This document shows positions 9,905-64,000 of a DNA stretch of 64,000 nucleotides, in pieces. Below the pieces are notes generated by a model that was given only the letters and a program-made list of their open reading frames with translations, did no database searches and had not been told where the DNA came from. The DNA is taken from positions 89,558 through 153,557 of the forward strand of contig NZ_LGCI01000006.1 in assembly GCF_001281525.1 (NCBI RefSeq), written 5' to 3'. A program made the translations under genes and the position numbers. The first letter of the stretch is position 1; every line of letters starts with the position of its first letter. The DNA is from Lysinibacillus macroides (lineage in GTDB: Bacteria > Bacillota > Bacilli > Bacillales_A > Planococcaceae).

Positions 9905-12856
<2,952 letters not shown>

Positions 12857-56011: not shown

Positions 56012-56467
56012 TTAAAATGGTACTTCTTGCTTTGCTGCTAATACATAATTAAATAGAGCGAGTTGTAGATCGTTTTCTTGCTCTTGCTTAAGGTGATATT
56101 CTTCTTGGCCTTCTTCATTCTTAATTACATAAATATAGGAAGTAAATTCATTTATCATGAGATAGTGAAATCCTGCATATGCACATTTTTCAGCATACTG
56201 TAGCATCGTTTTAAAGTCTACTAGTTGTTTATGACCTTTGTAATAGAGCGACTTAACAATTGTACGATCATATGCAGATAATGTCACAGCACGGCAAAGC
56301 TCTTTTTTATTTTTTACATCCACTGGTATTTTATATTTTTCACCAATGACTGCACATAGTATAAAAAATTCGCTGTTTTGCTGAAAGAGTCTGCATTTAG
56401 CTATTTGGTGATACAGAGGAAAATGCTCGCTCGATACATACACGCGCAATTGACCTAATTCATCCAT
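56012..56467 (-). CDS. 151-aa protein of unknown function, fourth gene of the ATPase operon
   Basis: I do not recognise this family. The protein MDELGQLRVYVSSEHFPLYH, then FILCAVIGEKYKIPVDVKNK, is mixed alpha/beta with aromatic residues and no signal or membrane segment. It starts 8 nt inside the ATPase gene with a GGAAGGGG site, so it is translated together with it. In size and position it resembles small partner proteins of DndD-like or ABC three-component systems, but I see no DndE signature. Its dependence on the ATPase is inferred from the overlap. Confidence 0.75.
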   Translation of the reverse strand: MDELGQLRVYVSSEHFPLYHQIAKCRLFQQNSEFFILCAVIGEKYKIPVDVKNKKELCRAVTLSAYDRTIVKSLYYKGHKQLVDFKTMLQYAEKCAYAGFHYLMINEFTSYIYVIKNEEGQEEYHLKQEQENDLQLALFNYVLAAKQEVPF

Positions 56468-58466
56468 GCAAAACAGCCCCTTCCTGCACTTTCATAATTC
56501 TCGTCTCCCCTGCACCTATTGATTCCAGTCGATAGTAAGTGCCAATTATTCCTGTTTCTTCAAATTGCACTTTTTCATTATGGCCAAATTCTCGATCAGT
56601 AACAAGTAACACCCATTGGCTACTTATTTTCGGTAAATACTCCAGCAAATTTTGTTGATGTTGAGATGAGATTCTTCCGAAGGGGGTATCCATGAATAAT
56701 GGCATCTCCATCATGTTACTACCTGAAGCTACTTGCGCTAATGCGGTAATAAAACTTAGCGAAAGGACCTGTCTCTGCCCTTGAGAAATATTTGCTAAGA
56801 AGGGTTGCTCGTAGGCGTTTAATACCTCTAACGAGTAATCCTTTTCTACTTTTACACGCTTTATCATATCTTGACCTGCTTTATCAAGTAAATACATTAA
56901 GTTCTGTTGGGTAGCCAATTGAAGGTCTTCAATTAAATCTGCCTCAAACTGACGAATAATATGTTCCATTGATTTTGTCGCCTGCTCCAATATGCTATGT
57001 TTTTTAATAAGTACTTGATGAATGCCACTTTTTTTCTCCAGTTCTTTTCTACTACTGTTAAGCTTGATTTTTTTCATGCTTACAGTCTCCTGTGTTTGTT
57101 GATTTTCTTTCATTTGTAATTTAATAGTGGTAATTTCCTCTTGATGCTGTGTTCGTTCTGCATTTAACTGCTTGATTTCATCTGTATTAACAGTTCCGAT
57201 TTTTTTGTTAAGTTGCTCTAGCTCCCATTGCAGCCTTTCCTTTTGATTCATCAAGCGCTCGATGCCATCTTTCGTCTTTATAATAAAATCTTGTCGTTCC
57301 TCTAAATACGATATGATGATTTGAATACCCTGGTATAACTGATGAATATCTTTTTTTGCTTCAAAAGATCGAAGTTGCTGCTCTAATTTTTTTAATTCTT
57401 GATGGCGACGATCTCCCTCTTCCATCTGACTACCACATATACAAAACATATTATCGATTAATTCTGCAACAAATTCCGCATTTATCCCCATAAAATTCTT
57501 ATCCAATAATTCTGTTGATATCATTGTCATTTGCTGCAATAATAAATCTTCACTCATAAGTAGTGGTAGATATTTATTTACTTTTCTTGCTTCTTGAAAT
57601 TCAGCATCAATATGTGTTGTCAATTCTTCTAAGCTTGTTTCGATACTTCGCCGTTCGTCAATATCCTTTTTCATTGTTTCAAACTGCTCTAACTGCTTTT
57701 CAATTTCATAAACTGCATGTTCATTTCTTTTTTGATTCGATAACAATTGATTGTACGCTAATTGTAGTTGTCCTTCCTCCGTATCCAGCTGCTCTAATTC
57801 TTTTAGCACAATTCTTAGTTCCCCTGTTGAATGTTTTTGAAGATCCTTTTTCACTTGATGCAATAATTTTTTCAAAACATCTTTTGACTTTAATATTTGA
57901 TCAATTTTCAGCAAATTTTTGATCCCTGTCGCTACCTCTTCTTTTTGCTGTGGTGAAACTCTTGTTAATCTTTCAATTCGCTCTCCATCGAAAAAGAAAT
58001 AATGTTTTACACGTGGATCAATGATCATCATAATTTCTAATTCAATCTCATTTTCAGTGTGCCATTCATGATGAGTTGTTTCATTCACCAATTGAACAGC
58101 ATGAAGTTCCTCACGTATTTTCCCATCCAACTCTTTTATTGAAAAATATGTGCGTGTAATTTTATAATCTTGATCTTGGTGGGTAAACCATAGTGTTACA
58201 CTACTGTTAATTCCCTGATTAATAAGCGCTTGCTCTTCAATCGCTTTAATATTAGCCAGCACAATATCTGATGAATGTTCATCTTGCTCCAAACGAGTAT
58301 CACCAAACAAAGCGAACATCATCGCTCGGTAAATAGCTGTTTTCCCACGCCCATTTTCACCTTGAATAACTGTTACAACCTCATGCTCTTTGGAGTGTGC
58401 AAACTCAATTTGTTCTGTGTCATAAAACTGACGAAAATTCGTCATTTGCAAACATTTAACAATCAC
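56460..58466 (-). CDS. DndD/Rad50-like ABC ATPase
   Basis: This 668-aa SMC/Rad50-type ATPase resembles DndD. Walker A is QGENGRGKTAIY (35-46) and YFFFDGERIERL (156-167) is a DndD-like segment. Coiled-coil arms (about 180-300 and 350-500) flank an apex with CICG (C342, C344), which may be a degenerate zinc hook. The ABC signature is ISQGQRQ (560-566) and Walker B/D-loop is PLFMDTPFGRIS (589-600). The H-loop-like WVLLVTDREF is near 618. Such ATPases act on DNA with ATP-driven clamp opening. GTG at 58466 follows AGGGGGAT. It lies 3 nt after the 60-aa gene. Confidence 0.9.
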   Translation of the reverse strand: MIVKCLQMTNFRQFYDTEQIEFAHSKEHEVVTVIQGENGRGKTAIYRAMMFALFGDTRLEQDEHSSDIVLANIKAIEEQALINQGINSSVTLWFTHQDQDYKITRTYFSIKELDGKIREELHAVQLVNETTHHEWHTENEIELEIMMIIDPRVKHYFFFDGERIERLTRVSPQQKEEVATGIKNLLKIDQILKSKDVLKKLLHQVKKDLQKHSTGELRIVLKELEQLDTEEGQLQLAYNQLLSNQKRNEHAVYEIEKQLEQFETMKKDIDERRSIETSLEELTTHIDAEFQEARKVNKYLPLLMSEDLLLQQMTMISTELLDKNFMGINAEFVAELIDNMFCICGSQMEEGDRRHQELKKLEQQLRSFEAKKDIHQLYQGIQIIISYLEERQDFIIKTKDGIERLMNQKERLQWELEQLNKKIGTVNTDEIKQLNAERTQHQEEITTIKLQMKENQQTQETVSMKKIKLNSSRKELEKKSGIHQVLIKKHSILEQATKSMEHIIRQFEADLIEDLQLATQQNLMYLLDKAGQDMIKRVKVEKDYSLEVLNAYEQPFLANISQGQRQVLSLSFITALAQVASGSNMMEMPLFMDTPFGRISSQHQQNLLEYLPKISSQWVLLVTDREFGHNEKVQFEETGIIGTYYRLESIGAGETRIMKVQEGAVLHG

Positions 58467-58469
58467 CTT

Positions 58470-58652
58470 TTATCCCCCTATCTGACTGAGTTTATTGTCA
58501 AGAACTCGTTCAATTTTTTTAGCATGTGCCTCTACTGATAGGGTTTTCTTTTTGTCTACTTGTTTGACTGTTTCCAATATCAGATCATTGACTAACGGAT
58601 CTTCTTCCTCCAATAAAGAGGATAGCTTGGCAATTAGTAAATTATCTCCCAT
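58470..58652 (-). CDS. 60-aa helical protein between the large protein and the ATPase
   Basis: The product MGDNLLIAKLSSLLEEEDPL, then VNDLILETVKQVDKKKTLSV, is predicted helical with an acidic start and basic end. It begins on the base after the upstream stop codon (TAG then ATG), has GGAGGAAG before it, and ends 3 nt before the ATPase start. The exact spacing argues that it is a real, translated, co-regulated component. A middle-component-like adaptor role, as in ABC three-component systems, is a guess from size and position. Confidence 0.7.
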   Translation of the reverse strand: MGDNLLIAKLSSLLEEEDPLVNDLILETVKQVDKKKTLSVEAHAKKIERVLDNKLSQIGG

Positions 58653-61600
58653 CTATACTTCCTCCAATAATTTTGTATGAATCATTTCATCTCCTATAAT
58701 TTCAAAGCGTGCCTGACCTTTCTCTATGGCTTGCTCAATCGAGTTTAACAGCATACCTGATTTAGAGTATCTAATTTTCATTAAATACTCTCTCAATTGT
58801 TGAACCTTCACTGCCCCTTTAAAAGAATTGATTAAAATATATTCAATCAAATCTACCTCCGATTGAATATTGCCCTCCTTCAATGTAAATATTTCTTTAT
58901 AGGAGCCAAAAATATGAAAGGCCTCTGCCTTTTTCAATACATCACCCAATAGTTCCTTACTCCAGCTTATATGATTATCTAATACCGGTAATTTATCCAC
59001 CTTATACAATTCTGGTAATAAGATATAGGAGCGTTCTTTTTCTACTATCATTTCATTCATTAATTGAGACATCGTACAAACAATTTCATTTACACCATCC
59101 TCTGTTAATCCAACAATATCTCGATGGATGTATTCCCCATATTGACCTTTCGCATAGTAAAGAATATCGTTTGAGCGCACTAAAGCAATATCCAACATTC
59201 GAGTATTTTGCTGCACACCAAATACATCCTCTAACCACTCTTCTACCTCTTCACGTGCAACAATATCTTCCTGCTCTTTTAAATAGCTGCTGACAAACTG
59301 TTCAGCCGTTAATTCGTCGGGATGGACTCCCTCATCATTTATGTAGGGGAATTTTGAAAATTGCAATTGCTCGATTCCAATTCGCCTCAATACATAGTAA
59401 AATACTTGTCTTGTTTCAATTCCAACACTTCGTATTAATAATTTAAATTTTTCATAAGCACTATGAATTGTTATGATCTTTTGTTCGGACATTTGTGATT
59501 TCAAATAAGCTATAGGTTTTTCTAGCTGTTCTTTTGTTATATGCTCATAATTAGAAATAATCGTATAATATCCATATTTAAACTGTATAATATTTGAATT
59601 GGAACTTAAATTGTAATCGAGAGTGAATTTTCTCCAGCCTCTCCCACGAATAAATAGATCTTCTAATTCTTCATAGGAAACAGCACGGCCTTTTTCTTCG
59701 ATAAATTGAATAATCCACTCTGCATTTGATTGTCTTTCATCGCCCTCTTTTAATACATTCGGGAACTTAGGCAATATAATACCTTCATTTGCATAGAGAC
59801 GTAAAAGAGTATACAATGCATATTCATTAGGAACATTCTGTGCTTGAGCTTCTTTCTTGACTGACTCATATAATTTCAATATATGAATAAAGTCTTCATT
59901 TTCTAATAATTTGCTTGCTAGCTCATTCACCAATCTCAACCATGCCAGATCAACTGTGACAAATTTATGATGAATATAAACGCCTCTACCCCATAGTAAT
60001 AATTTGTCTTGAATGCCCTCTCGTAAACAAACAGAGTTAAAGGAACGCTCTCCATGAAAGCTACCAGGCATTAAATCATTCGCTCGTTCGATGAGCATTC
60101 CCTCTTCTTTATAAATTTCAACTCCTTCAGGGAATTGTAAAAATACCATCTCCACTATATCGATTTTCTTCAAGCCGCTTAATACCGCTTGATCTTCTGA
60201 AAGCCAAGTGACAAATGTATTAGCTATCATCCAAACTGCTTCATACGGCAGTGATTCTTCTTCTGCATGCTCCATACAATACGCTGTTAAAGCATCATGA
60301 GATATAAGCTGTAAAGCAAAATGTTCTTTGATATCCTGTTTAAATTGCGCTAAATATTCATCAAATTGATCCTGGGTCCATGTAGTAAGAAGTAGGTGAT
60401 TAAATCGCCTTTCTTCCCTTATGCCTACTTGGCCTAAAGCTTGTAAAATAACAAAATCAGTCTCCTCTGTCATTTGGTGAAACCAAACATTCATTATAAA
60501 AGTTTTTTTCGCTATTTTCTCTTGAATAAAATGACGTATCCAATCAAGTGAACTGACAACTATTTCATCACCTTTTAGCAATATTTGTCTTACTCTTTCC
60601 CTTGTGATACCAGCAGATTGCCCCAATTCTTCCAATGTTAAATGTTTCCCTGAAGCAAATGTTTGATATTTTTTTTGCATAAAAGCCTGATATCGATTAG
60701 ATAAACGATTTTGTTCAGCATCTAAATACCATTTTTTGAAAAGATTAATTTCGTGATGAAACCTTTCATGATCTGGTAGTTGTTTAATTTCAAGTAATGC
60801 TCTTTGCTTATCTATATATGTTTGCAACGCGTGGAAAAATTTACTTACCTTCAATCTCCCTATTTTTTTAATTGAGAGTAATTCGCTAAAATCGTTTGGT
60901 AAATCAGCAATTCTATTTATATTTCCTTCACGCTGCAGTTGTTCTATTGTTCCTTGATATTCTGGAAAATCGGCTACTGTTAGAGGATATGAGAAAAATA
61001 CTTCTTCTATTTCAAAAGATTCTTGTTCAAAACGAACTACCTTCTCTGGTCCTTCTTTTACTTCTTCCACATCATCTTGTACTATACTGTCCGCATAACG
61101 ACCTAGTTGATCCCAAAATTTCCTGACTGCTTTTGGACCAACACCATCTAATTTCATATGAATACCATCAAGTGGCTCTATAAAATCAGCCAATGTTTGA
61201 ATACCATTTTGAGCTAACTCCTCAATCAATTTATTACAACCATTAATACCAATACTGTTTAATAAAAGATCCTTGTACTTTTCATGAATAAATAGCTGCT
61301 CCTTAAAATATTGCAGTCTATAAACTCTTTTTTCAGTATGTTGTGATTCATCAGTGCTTTGTAATATTAGTTCCTCTGACCATTCTTTTTGTAAGCCTTG
61401 TAAAAATTGGTCCAAGTCATCTTTTAGATGAAGTCTTAATGATGACAGCATAAAGTTTTGTAAATCTTTCAATTCTTTTACACCATATTGTTTTAATTGA
61501 TTGGCAGGTATACTCGTTGTTACGTTGCTGATTGAAATATGTTGTGCTTGTGGATTTATGTTTAATATTCCATCATTTTCTTCATTAATCTTTGGTTGAA

Positions 61601-62819
61601 ATTGTTGTAATGCCCCTGTAAAACGAAAGCCCAGCCAATACAAATCTGGCATTAATAAATAAAAATCTTCTTTGGATTGTTTATAGTATTCTCTTAAAAG
61701 CTCTACTGTTATTTCATTGAATTCTGTCACTTGCATAGCAGCTGATAGCTTTCCAAAATGAGGTGATACCCATTCCCTAAATAATTGAGATTTAAGATGC
61801 ACTGGCATTTTTATTTGCTCTTTTACACTCCAAAAATCATCTGGTATTATATCTAGTGTAGCCATTGGTTGAGAGATATTATCATCAGATTGAGTAAGAA
61901 TCGCTTCTACCTCATCTTGTGTTTGAGCCTCATCGATCTCCTGTATTGGTGTTTGTAAATTTCCTTGTCCCTCTACCGTCGCCTCGGCACTACCAATGAA
62001 CGATTTGTTTAATAGAAACCAAGCTGGTTTATTTTTTGTCACACGTCCACCTTTTTTAGAAAAACGGAAATAAATCTTGTGTTTTTTCAATTCTAATAAA
62101 AATTTGTTAATCTCCCAGCCGCCAATAACCCATAATGCACCACCTTTATCTCGTTTATCAATATAAGATAAGTTATGCTCCTCTAAATACTGAATTAACG
62201 GATACTCTGTTTTGGTCACACTTACGCCTACTGTCGTTTTTTTAGATGGCTCCATTTGTTTGGCTTTTTCTTGTTTTAAATAGGCTAACTCTCTTTGTAC
62301 TTCTGCCCACATCTCATCTACTTGTTGTAATTTATTTTCGATTATTGGCTTGACCATTTCTTCTATTTTCTCTGAATTTAGTGCATCATTTCCTTTGCTT
62401 TTTTCAGGTTCTTTATAGAGTGGTGCTTCAAAATCATGATTCACAAAAATTTGCATGTACCAAACACTAATATCATAAATAAATCGATGTGCTTGTAATA
62501 CATCCTGTATATGCACTTCCTTGAATTCATGAGCTGCTTTATTACCCTTTTTTCGTATCCATTCCAACTTTACATAGATTGCTTCTTCGATAGCATTGGT
62601 GCGATATAATTTATGTATTCTCTCAGAATGTTTTAATGGATAAATAGTCTCTATTCCTTCCATATCACTAATCATTTTCACTAATTGCTCTGTATATAGA
62701 CGCGCCTGCATTAGGCTTGCCTGTGGCTGATCATATAGTGTGTCTTCAATTTGCTTAGCTAGTTCCAGCATTTTAGGTGTTATATTTTTGACAAAATCCA
62801 ATAAAAAATTATGCCCCAT
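58653..62819 (-). CDS. 1388-aa multidomain protein: HEPN-like N-terminus, HhH and sigma-4-like HTH
   Basis: No single family is recognised. By residue: 1-135 resemble the DUF4145-type HEPN-like domain (RKKGNKAAH at 89-97). 150-200 are coiled-coil-like and charged. 205-270 hold a KGGALWVIGGWEINKFLLEL-type module. 430-470 and 540-575 carry helix-hairpin-helix-like pieces (KLDGVGPKAVRKF at 556-568). 727-748 are a sigma-70 region-4-like HTH (LTLEELGQSAGITRERVRQI). 750-1388 contain repeated winged-helix-like segments. The combination suggests DNA or RNA recognition with a possible HEPN effector. It is the first gene of the four-gene operon and has no intact gene upstream before the IS3 element. 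No transmembrane segment is visible. Confidence 0.85.
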   Translation of the reverse strand: MGHNFLLDFVKNITPKMLELAKQIEDTLYDQPQASLMQARLYTEQLVKMISDMEGIETIYPLKHSERIHKLYRTNAIEEAIYVKLEWIRKKGNKAAHEFKEVHIQDVLQAHRFIYDISVWYMQIFVNHDFEAPLYKEPEKSKGNDALNSEKIEEMVKPIIENKLQQVDEMWAEVQRELAYLKQEKAKQMEPSKKTTVGVSVTKTEYPLIQYLEEHNLSYIDKRDKGGALWVIGGWEINKFLLELKKHKIYFRFSKKGGRVTKNKPAWFLLNKSFIGSAEATVEGQGNLQTPIQEIDEAQTQDEVEAILTQSDDNISQPMATLDIIPDDFWSVKEQIKMPVHLKSQLFREWVSPHFGKLSAAMQVTEFNEITVELLREYYKQSKEDFYLLMPDLYWLGFRFTGALQQFQPKINEENDGILNINPQAQHISISNVTTSIPANQLKQYGVKELKDLQNFMLSSLRLHLKDDLDQFLQGLQKEWSEELILQSTDESQHTEKRVYRLQYFKEQLFIHEKYKDLLLNSIGINGCNKLIEELAQNGIQTLADFIEPLDGIHMKLDGVGPKAVRKFWDQLGRYADSIVQDDVEEVKEGPEKVVRFEQESFEIEEVFFSYPLTVADFPEYQGTIEQLQREGNINRIADLPNDFSELLSIKKIGRLKVSKFFHALQTYIDKQRALLEIKQLPDHERFHHEINLFKKWYLDAEQNRLSNRYQAFMQKKYQTFASGKHLTLEELGQSAGITRERVRQILLKGDEIVVSSLDWIRHFIQEKIAKKTFIMNVWFHQMTEETDFVILQALGQVGIREERRFNHLLLTTWTQDQFDEYLAQFKQDIKEHFALQLISHDALTAYCMEHAEEESLPYEAVWMIANTFVTWLSEDQAVLSGLKKIDIVEMVFLQFPEGVEIYKEEGMLIERANDLMPGSFHGERSFNSVCLREGIQDKLLLWGRGVYIHHKFVTVDLAWLRLVNELASKLLENEDFIHILKLYESVKKEAQAQNVPNEYALYTLLRLYANEGIILPKFPNVLKEGDERQSNAEWIIQFIEEKGRAVSYEELEDLFIRGRGWRKFTLDYNLSSNSNIIQFKYGYYTIISNYEHITKEQLEKPIAYLKSQMSEQKIITIHSAYEKFKLLIRSVGIETRQVFYYVLRRIGIEQLQFSKFPYINDEGVHPDELTAEQFVSSYLKEQEDIVAREEVEEWLEDVFGVQQNTRMLDIALVRSNDILYYAKGQYGEYIHRDIVGLTEDGVNEIVCTMSQLMNEMIVEKERSYILLPELYKVDKLPVLDNHISWSKELLGDVLKKAEAFHIFGSYKEIFTLKEGNIQSEVDLIEYILINSFKGAVKVQQLREYLMKIRYSKSGMLLNSIEQAIEKGQARFEIIGDEMIHTKLLEEV

Positions 62820-62998: not shown

Positions 62999-63060
62999 AA
63001 AACACCTCTGAAATGGGTATGTATAAACATGTACATATTCAATCATTCTGGAGGTGTTTT
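62999..63060 (+). promoter_or_regulatory. Hairpin hiding the IS3 orfA ribosome binding site
   Basis: AAAACACCTC (62999-63008) pairs perfectly with GAGGTGTTTT (63051-63060), and the latter contains the GGAGGTG site of orfA. IS elements often use such structures so that transcription coming from outside does not produce transposase. Confidence 0.6.
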
Positions 63061-63063
63061 TCT

Positions 63064-63381
63064 ATGACAAGGAGTAGTTATTCTTCTGATGTAAAGTGGG
63101 CCGTTGTGAAAGAAAAATTAGCAGGTAAATTAACGACGAAAGAGATTATGGAGAAATACGGGATTAAAAATAAATCGCAAGTGGAAACATGGATGCGTTG
63201 GTACAAAAATAAGGAGCTTTATCGCTTTGATCAACCAGTAGGCAAGCAGTATACGTATGGGCATGGACCCGAAGGAAAAAGTGAACAAGAAATGAAGGAT
63301 CGTAAAATGATGCATCTTGAAATGGAGAATGAGATTTTAAAAAAGTTTATGGAAATCGCAAAGGAGTTGAACGGAAAGTAA
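63064..63381 (+). CDS. IS3-family transposase OrfA
   Basis: This 105-aa HTH protein starts MTRSSYSSDVKWAVVKEKLA at 63064 after GGAGGTG. It has the helix-turn-helix TTKEIMEKYGIKNKSQVETW near 22 and a C-terminal leucine-zipper-like helix (HLEMENEILKKFMEIAKEL). OrfA binds the terminal repeats and, fused by frameshifting with OrfB, makes the transposase. It stops at 63381, 11 nt before the orfB frame begins. Confidence 0.88.
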   Translation: MTRSSYSSDVKWAVVKEKLAGKLTTKEIMEKYGIKNKSQVETWMRWYKNKELYRFDQPVGKQYTYGHGPEGKSEQEMKDRKMMHLEMENEILKKFMEIAKELNGK

Positions 63382-63392
63382 TCTTACAAACC

Positions 63393-64000
63393 GTGGCGAA
63401 GTTACGTAAGAAATATACAGTCACACTCATTTTAGAGGTGTTAGATATCCCACGTGCAACATATTATCGTTGGACGAAAGAAGGCGTTGATGAACATTCT
63501 CCCATTGAAACGGCCATTATTACGCTTTGTGAGAAAACGAAGTATCGTTATGGACACCGTAAAATTAAGCATTTATTACACAAAGAATATGGCTATCAGT
63601 TGAACCGTAATACCGTTCAAAAATGGATGCAAAAGCACAACCTCCAATGTCGGGTGAAAAAGAAACGTCGATTTAAAGCGGATCAGGGACCCGAAATAAT
63701 CGCCCCTAACTTATTAGCTCGCTCTTTTACAGCTACGGCGCCCAATGAAAAGTGGGTAACAGATATTACGTACATTCAGTATGGATCAACAACCATGTAT
63801 TTAGCGACGGTTTTGGACCTATATAATAACGAGATTGTTGCATACAAACTTTATGACCATCAACAGACACCTCTTGGTAATGGATGTATTAAAGGCGGCT
63901 TTAGAAGCTAGAAATGATCCCAAAGGAGTGATTGTGCATTCGGACCAAGGGAGTGTTTATACATCTTACGCATATCAAAATTTATTGGAGGAGATGAAGT
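63393..64000 (+). pseudogene. IS3-family transposase OrfB, frameshifted and cut by the window edge
   Basis: The OrfB frame opens at 63393 (MAKLRKKYTVTLILEVLDIP) and shows the HTH_21-like region RYGHRKIKHLLHKEYGYQLN and the start of the rve catalytic domain (NEKWVTDITYIQYGSTTMYL, first D of DDE). Near 63874, an extra G changes the frame. The correct continuation (VMDVLKAALEARNDPKGVIV, then HSDQGSVYTSYAYQNLLEEM) is readable in the next frame to the window end. Confidence 0.85.

Follow-up and report, generated by a model that had tools for sequence, protein, structure and literature searches.

A probable four-gene variant of the Pbe systems in Lysinibacillus macroides, with a HEPN-bearing large protein in the place of PbeA

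The stretch of DNA analysed here, 64,000 nucleotides (nt) of Lysinibacillus macroides contig NZ_LGCI01000006.1 (assembly GCF_001281525.1; 'the window' in what follows), carries on its minus strand a cassette of four open reading frames (ORFs) that encode, in order, proteins of 1388, 60, 668 and 151 amino acids (aa), with intergenic junctions of 0, 3 and -8 nt (Table 1). In our judgement this cassette is probably a four-gene variant of the systems named PbeABCD (Xiong, 2019; PMC6459918), in which PbeA is gone and its place is occupied by a HEPN domain fused to a large protein with sigma-4-like and helix-hairpin-helix (HhH)-like modules. The Pbe core itself was already described, whereas no account of the version with the HEPN-sigma-4/HhH protein instead of PbeA turned up in the literature searched. 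This reading draws on the family assignments, the gene order, the occurrence of the HEPN domain together with the absence of PbeA, a single origin on the ATPase tree, the conservation of the HEPN motif and the frequency of restriction genes among the neighbours, all of which were computed here.

When named prokaryote genomes were scanned with an alignment of PbeC sequences, 272 loci came up (a single-sequence scan of prokaryote genome contigs gave no match), and the locus counts given below refer to the best 80 of these 272, ranked by similarity to the window's ATPase. Twelve of the 80, hereafter the HEPN-type loci, show the window's four-gene layout with similar sizes and short or overlapping junctions. 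Because the same order, sizes and junctions recur in these 12 other loci, the cassette is not a chance arrangement, and the idea that it is unique to one genome is rejected. Since the loci were ranked by ATPase similarity, the natural share of HEPN types is lower than this count implies.

Composition of the cassette

By its sequence, the product of gene 3 is PbeC: it matches the PADLOC model of that protein with E 1.9e-156 over residues 1-642, compared with 2.2e-54 for the best DndD model, and its score against the NCBIfam DndD model (160.2 bits) lies under the cut-off of 245.85. Walker A, ABC signature and Walker B motifs were found, as well as a CICG motif. PbeABCD-type systems are marked by a CxC zinc hook, together with a coupled protein of the DndE type and a small protein that is disordered (Rakesh, 2024; PMC10853773); the hook of the DndD-related CxC ABC ATPases is present here. 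An earlier note, made from the letters of this DNA alone, had described the protein as a DndD-like SMC/Rad50 ATPase, of which the Rad50-like ABC ATPase stands and the DndD label gives way to PbeC, whose models fit far better. All of the ORFs, lengths and junctions that it had given for four genes on one strand were reproduced.

Beside the ATPase gene lies a cognate of the DndE/PbeD type, recognised through profile homology. When the gene 4 proteins of the 12 HEPN-type loci were compared by hhalign with PbeD proteins from outside the HEPN clade (15 sequences, all from Pbe loci and nine of them with dndC in the locus), the two groups matched with a probability of 96.3 and E 1.5e-9. Gene 4 itself gave no direct PADLOC match up to E 1, no NCBIfam match and no credible Pfam match, and a search of the PDB with the PbeD profile returned no DndE and nothing useful; two ribbon-helix-helix domains would be expected in the DndE cognate of the wider Pbe kind. 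The small, fast-evolving protein of such systems is represented by gene 2, by its position and retention, and its assignment to PbeB draws on position, size and orthologues: homologues were detected in 10 of the 12 HEPN-type loci (phmmer, E 8e-22 to 1e-4), the PbeB-position protein of L061 and L091 was read by eye as a small ORF, and a protein of 55-68 aa occupies this position in all 12. No PADLOC or Pfam match to gene 2 was obtained up to E 1, and the one NCBIfam match (E 0.034) is far under its cut-off. The sizes of both partners are close to those of the characterised Pbe proteins (60 versus 66 aa for PbeB, 151 versus 152 aa for PbeD). Within PADLOC-DB, the Pbe models match the ATPase only, the large protein gives partial matches and genes 2 and 4 give none. 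Genes 2-4 match the PbeABCD core (PbeC strongly, PbeD by profile, PbeB as just described), and the earlier claim of an undescribed system did not survive to that extent.

Table 1. Features of the cassette and its upstream flank (window coordinates).
Feature	Coordinates	Strand	Remarks
Gene 1, 1388 aa, ATG start	62819-58653	(-)	N-terminal DUF4145/HEPN fused to sigma-4/HhH-like core; in PbeA's place
DUF4145/HEPN domain, residues 24-113	62481-62750	(-)	Pfam 31.1 bits, cut-off 23.1; E44-x3-K48 and R89-x3-N93-x3-H97
Module of about 65 aa, residues 205-272	62004-62207	(-)	Common to C-terminal end of MTES_1575-nuclease proteins
Weak HhH match, residues 556-588	61056-61154	(-)	HHH_5 E 0.084, below cut-off
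Sigma-70 region-4-like helix-turn-helix, residues 718-747	60579-60668	(-)	Pfam Sigma70_r4 25.7 bits, cut-off 24.1
Gene 2, 60 aa, ATG start	58652-58470	(-)	Small protein, PbeB position
Gene 3, 668 aa, GTG start	58466-56460	(-)	PbeC, CxC-type ABC ATPase
CxC zinc-hook motif, C342-I-C344	57435-57443	(-)	Invariant in six-row ATPase alignment
Gene 4, 151 aa, ATG start	56467-56012	(-)	PbeD, DndE-cognate family
IS3-like element	63013-64000	(+)	Upstream flank, not a cassette part; HTH_28, HTH_21, rve; ORFs

The large protein had been described in the earlier note as HEPN-like/HhH/sigma-4-like, and the DUF4145 and Sigma70_r4 domains lie above their Pfam cut-offs, with the HhH match of 13.8 bits remaining weak and below its cut-off of 27. 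A search of the PDB with the HEPN region gave nothing useful, and the profile of the large-protein family (25 relatives) matched sigma factors of known structure, the best of them being RpoD (1tty; E 4.7e-17). The sigma-4 helix-turn-helix (HTH) is present in 24 of these 25 members; at E <=0.1, RNA_pol_A_CTD was detected in nine and HHH_5 in five. From about residue 330, the core is a homologue of an extra gene situated upstream of pbeA in five-gene Pbe loci, as indicated by the match to the Aneurinibacillus five-gene copy (phmmer, E 2.1e-75) and by an hhalign comparison with nine five-gene copies from Bacillaceae, Clostridium and Staphylococcus (961 columns, E 9.7e-38). Four alphaproteobacterial large proteins have the sigma-4 stretch alone (71 columns) in common with that of the window. 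The module at residues 205-272 is conserved in the large-protein alignment, and its counterparts were seen as partial stretches in the three MTES_1575-carrying proteins examined.

PbeA, which combines an HKD nuclease with an SF2 helicase, is absent from the window's operon, and the 15 listed PbeA matches in the window's genome all fall on the helicase (profile 234-629), the highest score being 104.8 bits. Nor was PbeA found at E 1e-40 in the fetched stretches of any of the 12 HEPN-type loci, which reach up to about 10 kb on each side (that of L062 ends just past the cassette), the best PbeA-like match there being 2e-21. The PbeA-like helicases of these loci either resemble type IV restriction enzymes more closely or are members of Zorya systems; those near L064, L065 and L088 were considered as PbeA and rejected, because they are closer to the type IV enzymes. 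Compared with this, all 31 loci that have the large protein but no HEPN domain also have PbeA (with a shortened ORF in L080). The cassette is not, therefore, a plain PbeABCD system.

PbeABCD in the strict sense is also coupled to phosphorothioation genes. No match to dndC was obtained in the window's genome or in the fetched stretches of the 12 HEPN-type loci, compared with its presence in five of the 31 loci with both large protein and PbeA (only L083 among these being in the main clade) and in 13 of the 28 with PbeA only. This coupling is not a strict one, since 320 of 553 PbeAC pairs are solitary, without dnd genes, according to PMC6459918, in which their working is left open. With no dndC in the genome and no methylase gene in the cassette, the earlier exclusion of a standard Dnd (DndBCDE) or restriction-modification system was borne out.

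The position of the cassette relative to described systems can be set out accordingly. It shares with PbeABCD the CxC ABC ATPase PbeC, the small PbeB-position protein, PbeD and the gene order, but PbeABCD has PbeA, whereas the cassette, for which no dndC was found, adds the 1388-aa HEPN/sigma-4/HhH protein. The five-gene Pbe loci (for example L067, L082 and L099) contain the nearest PbeC relatives and, upstream of pbe, a gene for a large protein with a homologous core, but PbeA is retained in them and a HEPN domain was not detected in that protein. In the DndBCDE/DndFGH systems DndD is a sister ATPase of PbeC (PMC10853773), but the window's genome lacks a dndC match and its ATPase fits the PbeC models far better than those of DndD. 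The pairing of DUF4145 with SIGMA-HTH is listed in a table of HEPN proteins (Anantharaman, 2013; PMC3710099), which in that passage gives no PbeBCD partners; the proteins listed are perhaps such large proteins. Neither HEPN-PbeBCD nor the large sigma-4 protein as a part of Pbe was found described in the literature searched, a scope that takes in PMC10853773 without its figures and supplements and does not extend to Krishnan 2020. The earlier note had named a characterised system with all four families as the finding that would speak against its proposal; none was encountered, since the cassette has no PbeA and the large protein does not figure as a part of Pbe in that literature. The HEPN-PbeBCD layout is a definition that detection tools could use.

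Proteins that resemble the large protein were also seen as separate ORFs of 364-367 aa (L012, L017, L018 and L019), with DUF4145 in the two that were scanned, and may belong to another conflict system.

Distribution and origin of the HEPN-type loci

The ATPases of the 12 HEPN-type loci have best-segment identities of 37-51% to that of the window, and their hosts include Bacillus, Pullulanibacillus, Gracilibacillus, Virgibacillus, Salimicrobium, Halobacillus (2), Metabacillus and Alkalicoccobacillus, among others. One locus, L077 of Gracilibacillus, is fragmented; of the 11 that are intact, 10 belong to Bacillaceae and one to Sporolactobacillaceae. The four genes thus travel together in Bacillaceae and their kin. 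The remaining loci among the 80 comprise the 31 with the large protein without HEPN and PbeA, the 28 with PbeA only, and nine in which neither was detected.

On a PbeC tree calculated with a quick method from 80 rows (the window and 79 loci, L077 being dropped), all 12 HEPN rows fall into a single group, supported by a Shimodaira-Hasegawa-like approximate likelihood ratio (SH-aLRT) of 100, and one change is needed to explain the character. The label 'HEPN' was set on this tree without regard to PbeA, the absence of which comes from the separate searches described above. The group is nested in a larger one of 39 rows, the others being 26 loci with large protein and PbeA and one undetermined locus, and five of the 31 loci with large protein and PbeA (four alphaproteobacteria and L117) fall outside this main clade. 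Judged from these sequences, the simplest history would start from PbeABCD, to which the large gene was added, followed by fusion of the HEPN domain with loss of PbeA.

The full-length large protein was found in one of 32 genomes of the genus, the window's own, with two more matching the N-terminal domain only, and in one of 261 genomes of the order, again the window's own (query residues 190-1388). On plasmids, large-protein matches are limited to the N-terminal domain and ATPase relatives have less than 60% identity; the 14 loci recovered from viral contigs are all partial ATPase matches. Decayed remnants of pbeC and pbeD were observed in another genome of the same family (G205, L054 7365-8689), their best pieces being 58% and 42% identical to the window's genes, and the large gene was not found at this locus.

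Predicted mechanism and competing explanations

As regards the defence function, the trigger and the role of each part, we infer the following. In line with the proposal in PMC10853773, PbeC and PbeD most likely scan DNA, with PbeB as a restraint: a PbeC dimer, joined by its zinc hook, would together with PbeD scan or clamp DNA, PbeB would restrain or couple the complex, and the large protein would bind DNA via its HhH and sigma-4 modules and dock on this core. Contact with foreign DNA, or the defeat of a restriction system nearby, would release the HEPN domain, which would then cut RNA and so stop the infected cell, so that the effector in the HEPN clade would be supplied by the large protein. 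The same paper reports endoRNases such as HEPN near ABC-DndE cores, with a tendency to lie at the boundaries of the systems. RloC and PrrC may serve as the nearest working analogy for an ATPase-controlled HEPN RNase: they too pair a Rad50-like ABC ATPase with a HEPN RNase, and PrrC is linked to type I restriction (PMC3710099), but in these proteins the two form one polypeptide, whereas the cassette encodes them in separate genes and adds PbeB, PbeD and the sigma-4/HhH core. The exchange suggests that a single sensing apparatus can be armed in different ways.

A bolder extension of this proposal, which we put forward tentatively and regard as doubtful in its full form, is that a scanning chassis of PbeB-PbeC-PbeD and a promoter-reading-like protein (its HhH/alpha-CTD-like and sigma-4-like modules resemble parts of RNA polymerase) swapped a DNA-cutting for an RNA-cutting effector and recognises invaders that have no phosphorothioate marks, perhaps because it reads DNA that resembles a promoter or stands guard over a type I restriction system nearby. 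If true, it would explain how 'solitary' Pbe systems discriminate self from foreign. The HEPN clade is in that sense a natural experiment, in which the scanning core is kept, dnd genes are not found and the effector is exchanged, and a comparison between it and the PbeA-type systems would separate the sensing part from the killing part and reveal whether the core can work with cleavage of either DNA or RNA; the extra sigma-4/HhH protein of the five-gene Pbe loci would also gain a place in a system.

The RNase prediction for gene 1 derives from its HEPN motif. DUF4145 is a member of the HEPN clan (PMC3710099). E44, R89, N93 and H97 are invariant in all 12 intact copies, as are 112 of the 1388 positions overall, and K48 is present in 11 of them; the cores of these copies are only 27-36% identical to that of the window. 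This invariance makes the earlier suggestion that the large protein may carry the toxic activity a plausible one on sequence grounds.

Several observations weigh against the favoured reading at this point. Active HEPN domains are said to have the spacing Rx4-6H, shorter than the R-x7-H seen here, and the motif is called 'mostly conserved (80%)' in DUF4145 in a table (PMC3710099); RNase activity is therefore treated here as a prediction. DUF4145 is also found N-terminally in HsdR and some DndF-like proteins, where it may be a mere accessory; and the HhH part of the window's own large protein has weak support. The atypical spacing and the N-terminal occurrence of DUF4145 in HsdR and DndF-like proteins also lend themselves to a different explanation, which we consider unlikely, namely that the domain is a non-catalytic docking or RNA-binding part and that the ATPase and the sigma-4/HhH protein block foreign DNA by binding or clamping alone. 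It was concluded in PMC6459918 that DndCDEA-PbeABCD acts otherwise than by direct cleavage of viral DNA and that deletion of pbeA left some resistance. However, a docking role accounts poorly for the invariance of E44, R89, N93 and H97 in such diverged proteins, and for the HEPN domain occurring where the PbeA effector is missing.

Two side observations concern similar N-terminal parts elsewhere. L058 encodes, next to pbe genes, a protein of the DndF type that begins with a DUF4145-like part (10472-12745), and in the window's genome two hsdR-like genes (L177 and L178, on contigs C10 and C13) near hsdM-like genes encode proteins whose first residues resemble the start of the HEPN-type large protein.

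The relatives of the cassette are often found beside defence genes, as the type I restriction, Zorya and BREX genes among their neighbours illustrate. Within the fetched stretches, type I restriction genes were detected near seven of the 12 HEPN-type loci versus one of the 68 other Pbe loci (Fisher p 1.9e-6), two of the seven cases being short hsdR pieces of 97 and 384 aa; the p-value is 2.0e-5 without the 97-aa case and 0.004 against the 16 Bacillota five-gene loci. With hsdM references taken from the window's own genome instead, the counts are four of 12 and none of 68 (p 3e-4). Here, too, there are points that count against the favoured reading. The type I reference sequences came from three of the HEPN-type loci and favour that group; with hsdR references taken from the window's own genome the excess is lost (1/12 versus 3/68 at E 1e-10), although these belong to a different type and fail to detect hsdR in L072 and L091; owing to the relatedness of the loci, the p-values are guides only; and the window's copy has no restriction genes alongside, its genome carrying N6-methylase (hsdM-like) genes on other contigs.

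These counts bear on a third explanation, that the cassette assists or guards a type I restriction enzyme encoded nearby in the manner of PrrC/PrrI, staying silent until the enzyme is inhibited and then attacking RNA. It is consistent with the excess of type I genes, including that obtained for hsdM with independent references, and with PrrC and RloC being ABC-ATPase plus HEPN proteins, the former tied to restriction (PMC3710099). However, type I genes are missing from the neighbourhood of five of the 12 loci (of these five, two have Zorya and one BREX) and of the window's copy, the hsdR piece is short in two of the seven loci, the hsdR excess disappears with own-genome references, and clustering in defence islands explains the data equally well; we regard this explanation as distinctly improbable. 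Decay of a solitary Pbe system into a non-functional one after the loss of PbeA would fit the absence of PbeA, the pbeCD remnant at L054 and the broken L077, but is very hard to reconcile with the window and 11 well-diverged loci, in all of which the four genes are intact, tightly joined and conserved in their motifs. A housekeeping operon for DNA repair or of a chromosomal SMC-like kind, to which the Rad50-like ATPase alone might point, is scarcely credible for a full-length large protein limited to the window's own genome among those of the genus (1/32) and the order (1/261), encoded in a variable region beside ssrA and, in relatives, beside Zorya, BREX and type I genes.

Genomic surroundings

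In the window's genome, the cassette and the IS3-like element fill the interval between a major facilitator superfamily (MFS) gene and the transfer-messenger RNA (tmRNA) gene ssrA, which lies just past the window's end (L155 14451-14803). Other genes occupy the same interval in the relatives G002 and G022, and in the nearest relative, G008, similarity of the flank likewise ends after the MFS gene. The window's cassette is located in a variable region beside the tmRNA gene.

Among the HEPN-type loci, L063 and L065 have Zorya genes after the cassette, and the cassette of L081 (2055-18184) is situated between the BREX genes pglX and pglZ, with a SIR2-domain gene adjoining. Restriction genes of the type IV-like PLD/SF2 helicase kind are neighbours in L064, L065, L088 and L099, where small genes look NUDIX- or MazG-like from their first residues only.

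Several five-gene Pbe loci have a radical-SAM-like gene beside pbeD or upstream, possibly a modification partner (L068 11726-13117, L069, L073, L074, L075, L103, L067 2171-4087 and L099 12677-14710). The Radical_SAM Pfam score is above the cut-off for L067 and slightly below it for L068, with no match for L099, and the others were judged by their first residues only. Genes for GHKL/HSP90-like ATPases (HATPase_c_3) were also seen near such loci (L050 16904-18880; L099 14707-16215). In two relatives from the genus, similarity to the window's genome breaks off within the tmRNA gene, 16-22 bases before its 3' end (L175, about 12.84 kb; L176, about 13.44 kb), which suggests that another island was inserted at the tmRNA 3' site in these genomes.

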